Positions 1,049 through 13,264 of a stretch of DNA of 64,000 bases are shown one piece after another. How positions within the stretch are numbered: the first letter of the stretch is position 1; every line of letters begins with the position of its first letter. Under the pieces are notes generated by a model. That model saw nothing but the letters and a program-made list of their open reading frames with translations, was not told where the DNA came from and ran no database searches. Source of the DNA: Chryseobacterium sp. 39-10 (GTDB lineage: Bacteria > Bacteroidota > Bacteroidia > Flavobacteriales > Weeksellaceae); assembly GCA_001898255.1 (NCBI GenBank), contig MKTK01000011.1, forward strand, positions 21,009 to 85,008, given 5' to 3'. The translations under genes were made by a program, and so were the position numbers.

Positions 1049-4000
1049 ATGAGTAAATCTAAAGCAGTCGCAAAAACTCAGGGGAACGAAAGAATCAATT
1101 TCTCCGCAGCCAAGGGGAAAATTGAAACACCTGATTTTTTGGACATTCAGATCCAGTCATTCAAAGAGTTTTTCCAGTTGGATACCCTTCCGGAGCAGAG
1201 AGTTCACGAGACCCTCTACAAAACCTTTGAAGAAAACTTTCCCATTACAGACTCCAGAAATCAGTTTGTGCTTGAGTTTCTGGACTATTTGGTAGATTCC
1301 CCGCGTTACTCGATCGACGAGTGTGTGGAGAGAGGATTAACCTATTCGGTTCCTTTAAAAGCGCGTCTTAAATTATACTGTACCGATCCTGAACATGAGG
1401 ATTTCCAAACAGTGGTGCAAGATGTATATTTGGGGCCGGTTCCTTATATGACACCTTCGGGATCGTTTATCATTAATGGTGCAGAGCGTGTAATCGTTAC
1501 CCAGCTTCACCGTTCACCAGGGGTTTTCTTTGGTCAAACTTATCACGCCAACGGTACCAAATTGTATTATTCCAGAATTATCCCTTTCAAAGGATCTTGG
1601 ATGGAATTTACAACCGACATCAACAACGTAATGTATGCTTACATCGACCGTAAGAAAAAATTACCGTTAACAACACTTTTAAGAGCCATCGGATACGAAT
1701 CCGATAAAGATATTTTGCAAATTTTCGACCTTGCTGAAGAAGTGAAAGTTTCTAAAGCAGCACTTAAAAAAGTGGAAGGTAGAACTTTGGCAGCGAGAGT
1801 TTTGAACACTTGGTTCGAAGATTTCGTAGATGAAGATACTGGTGAAGTGGTTTCTATTGAAAGAAACGAAATCATCCTGGATCGTGAAACCGTTTTGGAA
1901 AAAGAGCACTTGGATCTTATTCTTGATTCAGGGGTGAAATCAATTTTGATTCACAAAGAAAACTCCAACGAATTCTCGATCATTCAGAATACACTTCAGA
2001 AAGACCCTACCAATTCAGAAAAAGAAGCGGTAGAATATATTTATCGTCAGTTGCGTAACGCAGATCCACCAGATGAGGAAACAGCAAGAGGAATTATCGA
2101 AAAACTATTCTTCTCGGAGCAACGTTACTCTCTGGGAGAAGTAGGTCGTTACCGTTTGAACAAAAAATTGGGATTAAACATTCCGGAAAAAACCGAAGTG
2201 TTAACCAAAGAAGATATCATCTCTATCGTTCGTCACTTAATCGAATTGGTGAACTCTAAAGCAGAGGTTGATGATATTGACCACTTGTCCAACAGAAGAA
2301 TTAAAACAGTTGGCGAGCAATTGGCGGGTCAGTTTGGTGTAGGTCTTTCCAGAATTGCAAGAACAATCCGTGAGAGGATGAACGTTCGTGATAATGAAAT
2401 CTTCACGCCGATTGATTTGGTGAATGCCAAAACATTAACCTCAGTGATCAATTCATTCTTCGGAACCAACCAGCTTTCTCAGTTCATGGACCAAACCAAT
2501 CCGCTGTCAGAAATCACGCACAAGCGTAGACTTTCTGCACTAGGACCTGGTGGTTTATCCAGAGAAAGAGCAGGTTTCGAGGTGCGTGACGTTCACCATA
2601 CCCACTACGGAAGAATCTGTCCGATTGAAACGCCTGAAGGACCAAACATTGGTTTGATCTCCTCACTGGGAATTTATGCTAAAATCAATAATTTAGGATT
2701 CATCGAGACTCCTTATAGAAAAGTAGCCAACGGTAAAGTTGACCTTAAAAATCCTGCAATCTTCCTTAATGCTGAAGATGAAGAAGATAAGGTTATTGCA
2801 CAGGCAAACGTTGAAATGACTGATGACGGAACCATCTCTACTGAAAGAGTTATTGCCCGACTAGATGGTGATTACCCAGTAGTGGAACCTAATGAAGTTA
2901 ATTTGATTGACGTAGCACCTAACCAGATTTCTGGTATTTCGGCGTCATTAATTCCGTTCTTGGAGCATGATGATGCGAACCGTGCCTTGATGGGATCCAA
3001 CATGATGCGTCAAGCGGTGCCGTTATTGAAGCCACAAGCTCCAATTGTGGGTACAGGTTTAGAGAAACAGGTTGCAACCGACTCCAGAGTATTGATTAAC
3101 GCTGAAGGAAATGGAGTTGTAGAGTATGTAGATGCTGACAAAATCACCATTAAATACGAAAGAAGCGAAGACGATGATTTAGTATCATTCGAATCTGCGA
3201 CCAAAAGTTATAAATTAACCAAATTCAGAAAAACCAACCAAAGTACAACCATTACTTTAAGACCAAACGTAAGGGTGGGCGACAAAGTAACCAAAGGACA
3301 AGTGCTTTGCGATGGATATGCAACAGAAAATGGTGAGCTCGCTTTGGGTAGAAACCTTACCGTGGCCTTCATGCCATGGAAAGGATACAACTTTGAGGAT
3401 GCCATCGTAATCAACGAAAAAGCAGTTCGCGAAGACTGGTTTACCTCCATCCATGTTGATGAATATTCTTTGGAAGTTCGGGACACCAAACTGGGTATGG
3501 AAGAACTGACCGCCGATATTCCAAACGTTTCCGAAGAAGCCACCAAAGACTTAGACGAAAACGGTATGATCCGTATCGGTGCAGAGGTGAAACCTGGTGA
3601 CATCATGATTGGTAAAATTACACCAAAAGGAGAATCTGATCCTACACCGGAAGAAAAACTTCTTAGAGCGATCTTCGGTGATAAAGCTGGCGATGTGAAA
3701 GATGCTTCTTTGAAAGCGGATTCATCGTTAAGAGGGGTGGTGATCAACAAAAAATTGTTCTCAAGAAACATTAAGGACAAAAAGAAAAGAACAGAAGAAA
3801 AACTGAAACTTGAAGAAATCGAAAATACCTACAAGGCAAAATTCGATGAGTTAAGAGACATGCTTCTGGAAAAATTAGGAACACTGGTCAACGGTAAAAC
3901 TTCTCAAGGCGTTAATAACGATTTAGACGAAGAAATTATCGGTAAAGGAGTGAAATTTACCACTAAATTACTACAAAGTGTTGAAGATTATGTAAATGTA

Positions 4001-4876
4001 AGTGGTTCGGATTGGACTGTTGATGCTGATAAAAATGAGCTCATCAAGCAATTGATCCATAATTACAAAATAAAATACAACGACATTCAAGGGGTTAAAA
4101 ACCGTGAGAAATTTGCGATTTCCATTGGAGACGAGCTACCTGCAGGTATCATTAAGCTAGCAAAAGTTTACATCGCTAAGAAACGTAAACTAAACGTTGG
4201 AGATAAAATGGCAGGTCGTCACGGTAACAAGGGGATTGTATCACGTATCGTTCGTCAGGAAGATATGCCTTTCTTAGAAGACGGAACACCAGTAGATATC
4301 GTATTGAACCCACTTGGCGTACCTTCTCGTATGAACATCGGGCAGATCTACGAAACTGTTCTTGGATGGGCTGGTAAAAACTTAGGTCTTAAGTTCGCAA
4401 CGCCAATCTTTGATGGAGCTTCTTTGGAGCAGATTACCGAATACACCGAGCAAGCAGGCGTACCTCAATTTGGTAGCACTTACCTTTATGATGGTGGTAC
4501 TGGTGAGCGTTTTGCGCAACCAGCAACCGTTGGGGTCATCTACATGTTGAAGTTAGGACACATGGTTGATGATAAAATGCACGCACGTTCTATTGGACCA
4601 TACTCATTGATCACGCAGCAACCTCTTGGTGGTAAAGCACAATTTGGTGGACAAAGATTTGGTGAGATGGAGGTTTGGGCACTGGAAGCATTCGGTGCAT
4701 CCAATATCCTTAGAGAAATTCTTACCGTAAAATCGGATGATGTAATTGGTAGGGCGAAAACGTACGAAGCAATTGCGAAAGGAGAAGCAATGCCAGAACC
4801 AGGTATTCCGGAATCCTTCAACGTATTGCTGCATGAGTTACAAGGTCTTGGACTTGATGTAAGACTTGAGGAATAA
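1049..4876 (+). CDS. rpoB: DNA-directed RNA polymerase subunit beta
   Basis: 1275-aa translation with canonical RpoB motifs ([56 protein letters not shown]). Confidence 0.99.
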
Positions 4877-4891
4877 TTTTTTAGTAATTAA

Positions 4892-4946
4892 TGAATTGAG
4901 AAATCAGAAAGTGAGATCATATGAAATTATTTTCTGACTCTCAATT
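4892..4946. repeat. Imperfect inverted repeat downstream of rpoB
   Basis: gaattgagaaatcagaaa / ttttctgactctcaattc arms (about 17 bp with mismatches), 19-nt loop. Confidence 0.6.
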
Positions 4947-4972
4947 CTCGAAAATTATTTTTAATATTAGTA

Positions 4973-6202
4973 ATGAAAGAACTAATTTTTAGAAAGGAAA
5001 ATTTTATCTTACTATTTTTTTTAGCAATCTACATTTTTTCGGTGGGTTCTGATCCTATATTGGGTGATAGCTTGCCATTTACAGTAGGTGCCTCCAAAGG
5101 TTATGAGTTAGAGTCGAACGCAACTAATCACTTTCTGTATATAAATTTTTTGGCATTAGTCCACAAGATTATTCCATTTATAAACCCACATTATCTTTTT
5201 TCGGGAATCAGTGTGATTTGTTCTGTTTTGTCTTTGCTAATACTTCGAAATATCTTATTGCTCTTCAACTTCAGTAACATCGTTTGTAATGTAGTAACTG
5301 TTTTGTTTGGGTTTTCGTTTACCTTTTGGCGGATTTCCATTTTTACAGAAGTGTATAGTTTTTACATCTTGTTTGTGACCATATTTTTGTATAATGTTTT
5401 TTCTTATATTAAAGAGCAAAGAATAGATAATTTATATGGGGCGGCAATATTTTTTGGGATCATGTTTTTAATTCATATTCAGACAATATTATTAATACCT
5501 TTTTATTTGTATTTTTTGTACAAAAATTTACATGAAAAATCAAAAACAGCGATTGCTGTTTTGATACCTATTGTTTTTTTTTCAGTACTGTTAATCCCTG
5601 TAGTTTTGGGGAGGAATAACTTTATTGCAATATTTACGGATAATGCTTGGGGAAGTTCTTTTTTTAGTCTTGAATTAGAATCAATATTGAGAAGCGCAGT
5701 ACGTAATACGGGGTTTTTGCTTTATAATTTTATGTTCTTTATCGCTTTTGCATTCAAAGGTTTCAAAGATTTAGAAAACAAGGAATATTTTTTTATTGGA
5801 ATTATACCCTATATTTTTTTTATATTGAAACATGATGTTTCCGACTCTTATGTATTTCAGTTGGTTCCTTATCTTTTTTTATTAATCATGATAGCAAGTG
5901 GATTATCAAAATTGAATGATTTCAAGTGGATGTATATTGCTGTGTTTTCGTTTCCGCTTGTTTATTTTATAAATTATAAAATAGTAGAATGTACTGATGT
6001 AGGAAAGAGAATAGATCGTGAAACTGGCTTTAAAGGCGGTACAAAATATTTCTTTTTCCCACCGCTTAAAGGAAACCCAAGTATTGAAGAGTTTATTTCA
6101 GCTTATGAAAAGGGACAGTTTAAGAAATTACCTGTCTTGGAACAAGAAAACTATAAAAGAATGTATTTATACGCAAAAGAATGGAGATTAATTAAAACTT
6201 AA
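4973..6202 (+). CDS. Polytopic membrane protein, DUF2723/GT-C-like
   Basis: 409 aa, many hydrophobic helices; N-terminal [15 protein letters not shown] and [17 protein letters not shown] resemble DUF2723-type proteins; located between rpoB and rpoC. Confidence 0.6.
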
Positions 6203-6212
6203 ATATTATTAT

Positions 6213-7380
6213 ATGAAATTTAAATTATGTTTTATGAGTATGATGGTAAGTGTTATACTCCACGCACAAGATTGGGCTTTGTTTGGTAATGCAAACACTA
6301 CGCCTCAACAAAATTTTATTGGTACTACTGATAATCAAGATTTATTGCTTAAAACCAATAATATCGAAAGACTTCGAATCTCTAATACCGGCAGATTTAT
6401 TTTTCAAGGTGTTATAGGAGGGGAAAATGTATGGAACAAAAATTTATTTTTTGGCGGGGGGGGTAGATTATCCCACTCGAGGCAATAACACAGTTTTCGG
6501 TTTCGGTGCTTTAGCACTTAATATTAATGGTGAAGGGAACACAGCATTTGGAACTAATTCTATGTCACAACTTATAAGTGGAAATGAGAATACTTCAATA
6601 GGAGTAAATAGTATGGGTAAAGCTAATAATGCAGGAGGAAATGTGAGTTTTGGGAACAATAGCATGGAGGGCTTGGGGGGGTACAATGAGAATGTAGCAA
6701 TTGGTTTTATGTCCTTTAGAAGAGAGTTTGGACAATCATCAGAGAGTGTTTCGTATAATACTGTTATTGGTAGTAGGGCTCTTGCGTATTTAAGAACTGG
6801 TCAAAATAATATTGCAATTGGTTATAGCTCTATTAAACCTATTGTTTCAGGAGATAATAATGTATCTATTGGTGCAAATACTGGACTTAATCTCATTACA
6901 GGAAATGGAAATATTCTAATAGGAAATAATACGTCAACCTCTTCAAGTAATTCTAATAATGAATTAAATATTGGCAATTGGATATATGGGAAAGGAGGAA
7001 CAATTGGTATTGGAACTTCAAATGTAAATTGTAGTAATTGTACGGGTTACAAGTTGTTTGTAAAAGAAGGGATAAAAACCGAAAAGATAAAAGTTGAGTT
7101 TGCTGATATGAATGGTTGGGCAGATTATGTTTTTGAGAAAGATTACCCACTAATGTCTATAAAAGAAGTTAAGAATTTTATAGAAAAAAATAAGCACTTA
7201 CCCGAAGTTCCTACCGCTGAAGATGTTATGAAAAATGGTTTGGAATTGAAAGAGTTTAATACTTTGTTATTAAAAAAGATCGAAGAACTGACTTTACATA
7301 TTATATACCTACATGAAAAGTTGGAAGAACAAAATGACAAAATGGACAAATTGGAAAAATTGGAACAAAAAAATAAATGA
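6213..7380 (+). pseudogene. YadA-head-repeat surface protein with signal peptide, frameshifted at a G8 tract (possible phase-variable gene)
   Basis: 6213-6488 encodes signal peptide and N-terminus; 6427-7380 in another frame encodes [31 protein letters not shown] head repeats and a coiled C-terminus (KTEKIKVEFADMNGWADYVFEKDYPLMSIKEVKNFIEKNKHLPEVPTAEDVMKNG). Removing one G from G8 (6456-6463) joins them in frame. Confidence 0.75.
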
Positions 7381-8981
7381 TGAGAACTGTTCTTTGCTTT
7401 TTATTTTTTTTTAGTGGATTTTATTTTTTCTCCGCACAAGAGAAAGATCCTTTCCACAGAACTTGTGCCCTTAATGCACCTGCTGAAGTTGAGGATTTTT
7501 TGCTATCAGGTCGTAACTGCGGGAATACTTCAGCGTATTATAATCCTAATCAACATGCAAATCCTTTATATATTCCTCAAATTAGTGATGATATTATATA
7601 TATAAAGATTAACTTTATTTTTTTAACAAAACCTGATGGAACGGGTAATTTCGAGGAAAATAATCTCGAACATCAGGAATTTATTAATAATTTAATTGCA
7701 GCTTTTAATGGAAGATTAGCACATATTGATCCATCTGTGAGTGGTTGTGAAGTTTTTCCGCAATCAGTTATTGATACTAGAATAAGGGTAATTGTTAATA
7801 AGATATGGAAAGTGGATCCTGCTTGGGATTATCTAGTAACAGGATTTAATCCCTCGGCAAATAATCCATATGATAATAATAGCGTTTTAATCCCTGGTTC
7901 AACTTATTACTATTCTTATTTGGATTATGATGCTTCCATTCCGAAAGGGTTAAATATCACTTTTGCTAATAATGGAACCATTTATTCGCAGTACCAGACT
8001 GGGGATTTTTCTAAAACGCCATTAGATTGGGCTGTTTCGGAGTTTCCGTTTTTTAATGAGTTAAGTAATAAATCAAGACAATTTTGGCCTGATGTATATA
8101 ATGGTTTTTTACGGAGAAAGCATTTTATTGTAAATAATCCAAATTACGGAAATCCTAGTTGGGAAACAGTTAAAGCGTGGTATTACGGAGATATGGGATA
8201 TAGAGGAATGGTACACGAATTAGGGCATAGTTTGGATTTATATCATCACGATTGTGGAGCTAATATTATGAGTTATTCTGCTGGTAATCATAACTATTTG
8301 AGTATTGAAGATATTTCAAGAATGTACCAAAGTGCATCAGTTTCGAGTGTGAGACAATATTTTACAGAAAATTCTTTTAAAAGCAACAGTATCTATGTGA
8401 ATATGGACGAGCTTTGGGATATTAATTTTAGAAATTATTCTAATGTTAGAGTTGATAACAACTCAAGTTTAAGAACAACATGTAGAATTATAATGGCTCC
8501 TGAAAGTAAAGTTATTGTAAGAAATGGAAGTAATTTCATTATTGAGGGCGCAGATGTTAGTTCTGCAAATAATACATCATGGAATGGTATTAAAGTCGAA
8601 GGGAATGGATATTGCTTGATATTACCGGATACGGCGATTGATAATGGCTATTTTTATGCTTATACTGATAATACAATTTTACCAAATGGCAAATCTACAG
8701 ATGATAATTTCAGCAATATTAAAATGAGTGCCGAAACATTAGAAGGGCTACATTCTCAAAACTTATTCAGTATTTACCCTAATCCAACAGGAGAATTTAT
8801 TTATATTAAATCCAGTGAAAAAATAAGAGTTTTATCTGTTTATGATAGAATGGGGCAAAAAATAATCAGTATTAGAGACGAAGCAAACAAAATTGATGTG
8901 AAGAATGTCCCAAGCGGAGTTTATATTTTGGAGGTTAAGACGGATCAAGGCATCATAACAAAGAAATTTATAAAAAAATAA
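7377..8981 (+). CDS. Secreted zinc metalloprotease (metzincin) with T9SS type A sorting domain
   Basis: Signal peptide; [13 protein letters not shown] (HExxHxxxxxH) and NIMSY Met-turn; C-terminal [17 protein letters not shown]...[21 protein letters not shown]. Confidence 0.88.
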
Positions 8982-8998
8982 TAGATAAAATATTTTTT

Positions 8999-11900
8999 AT
9001 GTCAAATAAAAATAAATCAAGCAAATTTAGTAAGATCGCGATCGGTCTGGCTTCACCAGAATCCATCCTTCAGGAGTCAAGAGGAGAGGTGCTGAAGCCC
9101 GAAACCATCAACTACAGAACGCACAAACCCGAAAGAGACGGTTTGTTCTGTGAAAAAATATTCGGTCCTGTAAAGGATTACGAATGTGCCTGCGGAAAAT
9201 ACAAACGTATCCGTTATAAAGGTATCGTTTGCGACCGTTGTGGTGTAGAAGTTACCGAGAAAAAAGTACGTCGTGAGCGTATTGGTCACATTAATCTTGT
9301 GGTTCCTATTGCTCACATCTGGTATTTCCGTTCGTTGCCGAATAAAATTGGTTACTTGTTAGGATTGCCTTCCAAGAAATTGGATATGATTATCTACTAT
9401 GAAAGATATGTAGTTATTCAGCCAGGTATCGCTAAAAAGGCAGATGGTTCCGATTTCGATGATATGGAATTTTTAACAGAAGAAGAGTATCTTGATATTT
9501 TGGATACGCTTCCTGTAGAAAACCAATATCTTGACGATTCGGATCCCAATAAATTTGTGGCAAAAATGGGTGCAGAGGCCGTTGAAGGATTGCTGAAAAG
9601 AATCGATCTGGATGCATTGTCTTTCGACCTTCGTCACAAAGCACACAACGAATCATCAAAGCAAAGAAGAACAGAAGCGCTGAAAAGACTGAACGTGGTA
9701 GAAGCACTTCGTGGTGCCAACACCAGAATGATCAATAAACCAGAATGGATGATCATGCGTGTACTTCCAGTTATTCCACCAGAATTAAGACCATTGGTTC
9801 CGTTGGATGGAGGACGTTTTGCAACCTCAGACTTGAATGATCTTTACCGTCGTGTGATCATCAGAAATAACCGTTTGAAAAGATTACTGGAAATTAAAGC
9901 TCCAGAAGTGATCTTGAGAAACGAAAAACGTATGCTTCAAGAATCTGTAGATTCGTTGTTCGATAACACCAGAAAATCTTCTGCTGTAAAATCGGAATCC
10001 AACAGACCATTGAAATCACTTTCTGATTCTTTGAAAGGTAAACAAGGTCGTTTCCGTCAGAACTTATTAGGTAAGCGTGTTGACTATTCAGCTCGTTCGG
10101 TAATTGTTGTTGGTCCAAACCTACAACTTCACGAATGTGGTATTCCTAAAGATATGGCAGCCGAATTGTACAAACCATTCATCATCAGAAAATTGATTGA
10201 GAGAGGAATTGTAAAAACGGTAAAATCAGCAAAAAGAATCATCGATAGAAAAGAACCTGTCGTTTATGATATCCTTGAAAACGTGATGAAAGGTCACCCA
10301 GTTCTTCTGAACCGTGCGCCTACGCTTCACCGTTTGGGTATCCAGGCATTCCAGCCGAAGATGATTGAAGGCAAAGCCATCCAACTTCACCCATTGGTAA
10401 CAACGGCATTCAACGCCGATTTCGATGGTGACCAGATGGCGGTGCACTTACCTTTGGGCCCAGAAGCTATTTTGGAAGCTCAGTTATTGATGTTAGGTTC
10501 TCAAAATATCCTTAACCCAGCGAATGGTTCTCCAATTACCGTACCTTCTCAGGACATGGTATTGGGGCTATACTTCATGACGAAACAGTTGGATTCTACT
10601 GATGAGGTTAAAGTGAAAGGAGAAGGACTTGCTTTCTACTCTCCGGAAGAGGTAGAAATCGCTTATGCAGAAGGACAAGTTTCTCTTAACGCAAAAGTAA
10701 GATGTAAACTTCCTGTAAAAGAAGAAGGAGAATTGGTGATTCGCCTTATCGAAACTACTGTTGGCCGAATTTTATTCAACCAAATCGTGCCAAAAGAAGT
10801 TGGTTTCGTTAACGAATTGCTTACCAAAAAATCTTTGAGAAATGTAATCGGTAGAATTCTTGCAGACACGGACTTCCCAACAACAGTGAAGTTCTTGGAT
10901 GATATGAAAAATCTAGGATACTCTAACGCATTCAAAGGAGGACTTTCGTTCTCATTGGGCGATATTGTAATTCCAGCCGAGAAGAAAAAAATGATCGCTA
11001 CCGCAGTAGAAAATGTGGATGAAATTAAAGCGAACTATAACATGGGTCTTATCACCGATACCGAAAGATACAACCAGGTAATCGACGTTTGGACCAATAC
11101 CAACGCAGGACTAACCGAGATGATTATGAGCAGAATGAAAACCGACCAAGGTGGGTTCAACTCTGTTTATATGATGCTTGATTCCGGGGCGAGGGGTTCT
11201 AAAGAACAGATTCGTCAGTTATCCGGAATGAGAGGTTTGATGGCCAAACCACAAAAAGCCGGTTCTACAGGAGCAGAGATCATCGAAAACCCGATTGTGG
11301 CGAACTTTAAAGAGGGACTTTCCATTTTGGAATACTTCATCTCCACCCACGGTGCTCGTAAAGGTCTTGCGGATACCGCACTTAAAACCGCCGATGCTGG
11401 TTACTTAACCAGAAGATTGGTAGACGTTGCACAAGATGTTATCATTACAGAAGACGATTGTGGCACTTTAAGAGGTACCGAAATTACGCCATTGAAGAAA
11501 AACGACGAAATCGTTGAGAAAATTTCTGAAAGAATCTTGGGTAGAGTTTCTCTGCACAACATTTATCATCCAGAAACCGACGAAATCATCATGGAAGCAG
11601 ATACACTGATTGATGAAGTTTATGCAAAACAAATCGAGGAAGCAGGTATTGAAGTGGTAGAAGTTCGTTCTCCATTAACCTGCGAAGCCAAAAAAGGAAT
11701 TTGTGCAGCATGTTATGGTAGAAACTTAGCGACGGGTAAAACAATTCACATGGGTGAAGCTGTAGGGGTAATTGCCGCTCAGTCCATCGGTGAACCAGGA
11801 ACACAGTTGACGCTTAGAACCTTCCACCAAGGGGGAACTGCAGGTAACGTTTCGGTGAATCCGTTTATTGAAGCAAGAAGAGATGGTATCGTAGAAATGG

Positions 11901-13264
11901 ACGAAGTGCGTACCGTAACTTCTGAAAACGAAGAAGGTAAGAAAGCAGAAATCCTTGTGTCACGTTCTACAGAATTCCGTTTGGTAGCAGATAATTCGAC
12001 AAGAACACCATTGATGGTAGCCAACGTTCCTTATGGTTCCGAAATCTTCGTGAAGCCGGGCGAAAAGGTGAAAAAAGGTGATATGATCGCCAAATGGGAT
12101 CCTTATAACGCGGTAATTATTGCAGAAACTTCTGGTAAAGTAGAATACGAAGATATTATTCAGGGTATTTCATTCCAGTTAGAAATTGACGAGCAAACCG
12201 GTTTCGAAGAAAAAGTAATCTCCGAATCCAGAAATAAAAAAGCAGTACCAACGCTGAAAGTGGTTGATGCCAAAGGCGTTGAGCAGAAAGCATACAATTT
12301 ACCGGTTGGTGCCCACTTAATGGTAAACGATGGTGAGAAAATTAAGGCAGGTAAAGTTTTGATCAAGATCCCTAGAAAATCTGCGAAAGCAGGGGATATT
12401 ACCGGTGGTTTACCAAGGGTAACCGAATTGTTCGAAGCAAGAAACCCATCAAATCCAGCGGTTGTTACAGAAATCGACGGGGTAGTTTCTTACGGTAAAA
12501 TTAAAAGAGGTAACCGCGAATTGATCGTGGAAGCTAAAACCGGGGAAATTTCTAAGTATTTGGTGAAACTATCCAACCAAATTTTGGTGCAGGAGAACGA
12601 CTTCGTGAGAGCAGGTTCGCCACTTTCTGATGGTTCCATTACGCCAGACGATATCCTTAAAATTAAAGGGCCAACTGCAGTACAGGAATATCTTGTGAAC
12701 GAAATCCAAGAGGTTTACCGTTTGCAAGGGGTGAAAATTGATGACAAACATTTCGAAATCATCGTTCGTCAGATGATGACTAAAGTAGAAATTGTTGATG
12801 GTGGAGATACCCAGTTCTTGGAAGGTGCATTGGAGCACAAATACGACTTCTTAGAAGAAAACAACAGAGTTTTCGGTCTAAAAGTAGTTGTAGAAGCTGG
12901 AGATTCTAAAGAATTTAAACCAGGACAAATGATCACCGCAAGAGAGTTAAGAGACGAGAACTCTAAACTGAAACGCGAAGATCTGCAATTGGTTGAAGTT
13001 CGTGAGGCACTTCCTGCAACGGCAACTCCGGTGCTTCAAGGTATTACCAGAGCGGCATTGCAAACCAAATCGTTCATGTCGGCTGCATCATTCCAGGAAA
13101 CTACAAAAGTACTGAACGAAGCTGCGGTTTCCGGTAAAATCGATTACCTTGGTGGTCTTAAAGAAAACGTTATCGTAGGACACAGAATTCCTGCAGGTAC
13201 CGGTCTTAAAGATTACCAAAGCATCATCGTCGGTTCTAAAAAAGAATTCGAAGACATTAACTAA
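8999..13264 (+). CDS. rpoC: DNA-directed RNA polymerase subunit beta'
   Basis: 1421-aa translation with [15 protein letters not shown] catalytic motif and zinc-binding N-terminus [23 protein letters not shown]. Confidence 0.99.

Follow-up and report, generated by a model that had tools for sequence, protein, structure and literature searches.

A poly-G tract at the frame junction of a split surface-type protein gene between rpoB and rpoC: a candidate contingency locus in a Chryseobacterium genome

Between rpoB and rpoC of the stretch analyzed here (the window, 64,000 nucleotides), the gene for a surface-type repeat protein is divided between two reading frames, with a run of eight G residues where they meet. 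Does this tract belong to an ON/OFF switch that was captured in the OFF state, or is the gene broken, either in the cell or in the assembly? An earlier reading of the sequence alone had proposed a switch. We confirmed the coordinates on which that proposal depends, as the tract lies where the two frames overlap out of register, and the register difference between them is that of a one-base insertion or deletion. The parts of the gene are as follows.

6213-6488, + strand: 5' frame of the split surface gene, encoding a signal peptide and a conserved N-terminal domain (open reading frame; 35 to 54% identity to the N termini of intact orthologs)
6427-7380, + strand: 3' frame, encoding 17-residue NTxxG repeats, a conserved C-terminal domain and a terminal helix (open reading frame; 44 to 49% identity to 15 orthologs; repeats; structure model)
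6456-6463, + strand: G8 homopolymer at the junction of the two frames (sequence; one of four G8 tracts in the genome)
6675-6681, + strand: second poly-G tract of the same gene, G7, in frame with the 3' reading frame (sequence)

The tract is a G homopolymer of about seven bases or more inside a coding region, and a change in its length alters the frame. On either side of it the gene is otherwise intact, since both frames are open and each is homologous to one part of the intact orthologs. The 5' frame reaches its stop 25 nt past the tract. The 3' frame stays open for 317 codons with no other lesion in this assembly, and its homology to the orthologs starts near the tract and reaches close to the end of the frame. 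Counted from the ATG at 6427, the first eight codons of the 3' frame do not share the register of any ortholog, and therefore this ATG is not the natural start of the gene.

Full-length orthologs are present in many Chryseobacterium species, based on a search of GTDB genomes. In each of 15 Chryseobacterium orthologs the protein is encoded by a single intact gene of about 380 to 410 aa, with identity of 44 to 49% over the full length. The two frames meet at a conserved FFGGG motif of these proteins, and the motif falls on the tract. The orthologs encode the glycines of this motif with mixed GGN codons and without a long G run; the longest G run in any of the ortholog genes is six. These orthologs are secreted proteins with the 17-residue repeat. 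They share the N-terminal, repeat and C-terminal domains of the split gene, and differ from it in being intact and in lacking a long G run. An Amniculibacterium relative is annotated as a "cell wall anchor protein." The signal peptide and these relatives suggest that the split gene encodes a surface-type repeat protein located at the cell surface.

The proposal had also described the protein as having a YadA-type head, and this label did not hold up as a finding. The split-gene protein, with nine copies of the 17-residue repeat, was not assigned to any credible family by Pfam, NCBIfam, PDB sequence search or Foldseek. Profiles for YadA head repeats and anchor had no match in the window's frames or in the intact orthologs, even at E<=1, and a Foldseek search with the structure model of the protein retrieved no solved YadA structure. 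This last negative carries little weight, as the model, which includes the terminal helix, is of only moderate confidence (pLDDT 63). What is left is a resemblance: like the heads of YadA-type trimeric adhesins, the protein has short, Gly/Asn-rich beta repeats followed by a helical C terminus. YadA-type head repeats, however, are 14 residues long, and the 17-residue repeat of the split gene has no Pfam match.

The split gene has a closely spaced neighbor in the same orientation on each side, and the three genes together form a cassette in the RNA polymerase operon.

4877-8998, + strand: cassette of 30.8% GC, interrupting rpoB (1049-4876) and rpoC (8999-13264) (rpoB-rpoC spacers of the genus; GC contents)
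4973-6202, + strand: cassette gene 1, TMEM260/PMT-like membrane glycosyltransferase (Pfam matches just under the cut-off; 49% identity to a homolog on an Amniculibacterium plasmid)
7377-8981, + strand: cassette gene 3, putative HExxH zinc protease with a T9SS type A sorting domain (Por_Secre_tail, 2.4e-12; TIGR04183; 47% identity to a homolog in genome G028)

The glycosyltransferase gene ends 10 nt upstream of the split gene. Both rpoB and rpoC have a GC content of 41%, and the C terminus of the window's RpoB is 93 to 95% identical to that of Chryseobacterium genomes. In 28 of the 29 other genus genomes examined, the spacer between rpoB and rpoC is 70 to 112 nt, and the 4.1-kb cassette was found at this position only here. 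The one exception to the short spacer carries a different, unrelated insert of 1 kb with a 312-codon frame, which we take to encode a dioxygenase-like protein. Elsewhere, too, relatives of the cassette genes are found side by side. In G028, a homolog of the split gene adjoins the protease homolog at another locus, and on the 16-kb Amniculibacterium plasmid NZ_CP060699.1, the glycosyltransferase homolog adjoins the split-gene homolog (the "cell wall anchor protein"). Thus, the cassette is probably mobile and recently acquired. On the plasmid, these homologs lie next to genes for a T9SS protein and an RHS-repeat protein.

The tract is not conserved in the orthologs of other species, which speaks against a switch and makes a fixed frameshift in a newly acquired cassette possible. 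The gene would then be a recent pseudogene, brought in horizontally and inactivated when a mutable G run gained or lost bases by chance, and switching would not be under selection. The low GC content of the cassette, its occurrence here only among the genus genomes examined and the presence of homologous genes on a plasmid and at loci elsewhere all fit such an origin, as does the lack of the tract in the orthologs. Against it, the 3' frame has accumulated no further lesion over its whole length, and two genes outside the cassette, described below, bear the same lesion at the same type of tract. We therefore consider a fixed pseudogene unlikely, although it is the most serious of the alternatives.

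The switch proposal had relied in part on the rarity of poly-G, and this argument stood only for the position of the tract. By a first-order Markov estimate, about 0.6 runs of at least eight G or C are expected per 64-kb window and 0.05 in the split gene, so that a G8 tract somewhere in 64 kb is unremarkable. The placement of a G8 tract at the exact junction of the frames, together with a second tract of seven in the same gene of 32% GC, is remarkable; the earlier reading had passed over this second tract. There was no excess of poly-G over chance in the window or in the genome (ten G tracts of at least seven in 3 Mb). Among 36 genomes of the genus, exact G8 tracts are most numerous here, with four, and the others have zero to three. 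We also asked whether the choice of glycine codons is a sign that the tract is under selection. Both of the GGG-GGG pairs among the 72 Gly-Gly pairs of the window fall in the split gene, and GGG makes up 7 of its 42 glycine codons, compared to 23% in its neighbors and 9% elsewhere; as GGG is commoner throughout the cassette, this sign was not convincing. The flanks of the tract had no match in viral contigs.

We examined every G tract of at least seven in the genome (3.07 Mb, 41 contigs); six are G7 and four are G8, the greatest length present. Two further genes, candidates for a contingency type, are split exactly at such tracts. In a type I restriction-modification locus, a G8 tract divides hsdS into two halves, both Methylase_S (G000:C7:108000-124000, tract 8621-8628 therein). 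The order of this locus is hsdM, hsdS1 (196 aa), hsdS2 and hsdR, with the poly-G at the 3' end of hsdS1, and a TAEL tandem repeat lies near the end of hsdS1. A G7 tract splits the gene of a secreted RCC1-repeat protein (G000:C8:195000-210000, tract 6089-6095 therein), whereas the homolog in a second species of the genus is encoded by a single uninterrupted frame of 680 codons. In two other genes the tract is in frame: a G8 in a SusC-type receptor gene, and a G7 at the end of a gene for a DUF3575 outer membrane protein. The last G8 lies 77 nt upstream of an AraC-type regulator (C8 at 5903-5910 of its stretch). Of the remaining G7 tracts, one is intergenic and two are in a low-complexity stretch near a contig end. 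The G8 tracts at the SusC-type gene and the AraC-type regulator are possible further contingency loci. In another species of the genus, we additionally observed a G9/C9 tract between two frames of an AAA-ATPase-like gene, possibly a further poly-G split.

Counting the two tracts of the split gene itself, the frame is broken at three of the six coding G tracts of at least seven. As a control for sequencing error, we collected coding A/T tracts of at least seven from about 146 kb of this genome, made up of the window and seven further stretches. None of these 66 tracts breaks its gene, which argues against general homopolymer error; we rejected that explanation on this basis. The difference from the G tracts gives a Fisher p of about 3e-4, a value limited by the comparison of G tracts taken genome-wide with A/T tracts taken from the sample only. 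Three A/T splits called automatically had other explanations: one is the normal boundary between the protease gene and rpoC, and the other two involve spurious frames, of which one lies opposite an intact gene and the other between genes. A mismatch-repair defect was likewise rejected, as the MutS frame is open over 874 codons.

An error specific to G runs is a narrower proposal, under which the real tract would be in register and the gene intact. The assembly is a draft in 41 contigs of unstated technology and has three splits at G tracts, and exact G8 tracts in the coding frames of other genus genomes appear unbroken. Such unbroken tracts are as expected for required genes, and equally so if this assembly is special. 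However, the intact A/T tracts count against an error of this sort, and so do the SusC-type G8, the DUF3575 G7 and the second G7 of the split gene, all of which are in frame. We judge a G-specific error improbable. In two other genus assemblies, poly-G runs of 20 to 76 bases occur at contig ends and look like sequencing artifacts.

Alternatively, the gene could be out of frame and still yield some full-length protein, through slippage of RNA polymerase or the ribosome at the G run. Such recoding requires a particular geometry, which a homopolymer placed where two frames overlap provides. The orthologs, however, lack the run and need no recoding, and the hsdS and RCC1-repeat genes would also have to be recoded. 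Thus, recoding seems to us hardly credible.

We favor, with some reservation, the reading of the G8 tract as a poly-G contingency locus that is OFF in this assembly. Phase variation, as originally proposed, gains support from the two other genes split at G7 or G8 tracts (one of them hsdS, in the NgoAV layout described below), the unbroken A/T tracts and the undecayed 3' frame. It is weakened by the lack of conservation in other species, by the coding G8 tracts that appear unbroken in other genus genomes and by the chance-level number of poly-G tracts in this genome. It is read from one assembly, with one genome per species. In this mechanism, the surface-protein gene would contain, in its G8 tract, a simple sequence repeat prone to slippage, and slipped-strand mispairing at replication would alter the length of the tract. 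With the tract in register, the full-length secreted protein would be made; out of register, as in the assembly, the product would be a truncated stub of 91 aa. A lineage would then alternate between full-length protein and stub, and the split gene would be one of a small poly-G contingency set, together with the split hsdS and the secreted RCC1-repeat protein. Reversible change of tract length among the cells of a population, and selection for such change, are our inference.

Phase variation by slipped-strand mispairing at poly-G is well established in Campylobacter and Neisseria. As in the poly-G and poly-C surface genes of C. jejuni and Neisseria, the split gene is of surface type and carries, amid AT-rich sequence, a G run of at least seven within its frame; it would give a truncated product out of register, and it is one of several such genes in its genome (here, ten tracts). 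It differs in that the tract is short, the tracts are few, the organism belongs to the Bacteroidota and the state is read from a single assembly. C. jejuni has 12 to 29 tracts per genome, and a G8 tract there switches at about 0.004 (PMC4965091). Eight bases are thus enough for switching in C. jejuni, and by analogy the mechanism suggested here would work like a known kind of switch.

The companion hsdS locus has its own precedent in NgoAV of Neisseria gonorrhoeae, an experimentally established poly-G switch in which a change in the number of G residues fuses the hsdS halves and alters specificity (PMC9577141). The layout is the same: a poly-G run closes hsdS1 and sets it apart from hsdS2. The locus differs from NgoAV in an extra AAA-type gene between hsdS2 and hsdR, and the likeness concerns this companion locus and not the window gene. 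In word searches of a partial literature collection, we found no description of phase variation by poly-G for Chryseobacterium-like Bacteroidota. Should the tracts vary, these bacteria would have a set of contingency genes open to testing; it would include a restriction system with the potential to act as a phasevarion, and one of the switches would be placed inside the RNA polymerase operon.

This last placement raises the question of an effect on rpoC. The protease gene and rpoC are 17 nt apart, and no Bacteroidota-type promoter was found before the cassette or before rpoC (matches in the window are at chance level). Thus, rpoC may depend on transcription that reads through the cassette. A broader proposal would combine the surface protein, the RCC1-repeat protein, hsdS and perhaps the SusC-type receptor and the leader of the AraC-type regulator into one contingency set, with one switch within the rpoB-rpoC operon. 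In its OFF state, a stretch of nearly 900 nt ahead of rpoC would be poorly translated, and polarity could then alter expression of the RNA polymerase beta-prime subunit. We give this combined proposal little credence, and any polarity of the OFF state toward rpoC is speculative. In the spacer after rpoB (4877-4972), we observed a long imperfect hairpin with a z-score of -2.2.
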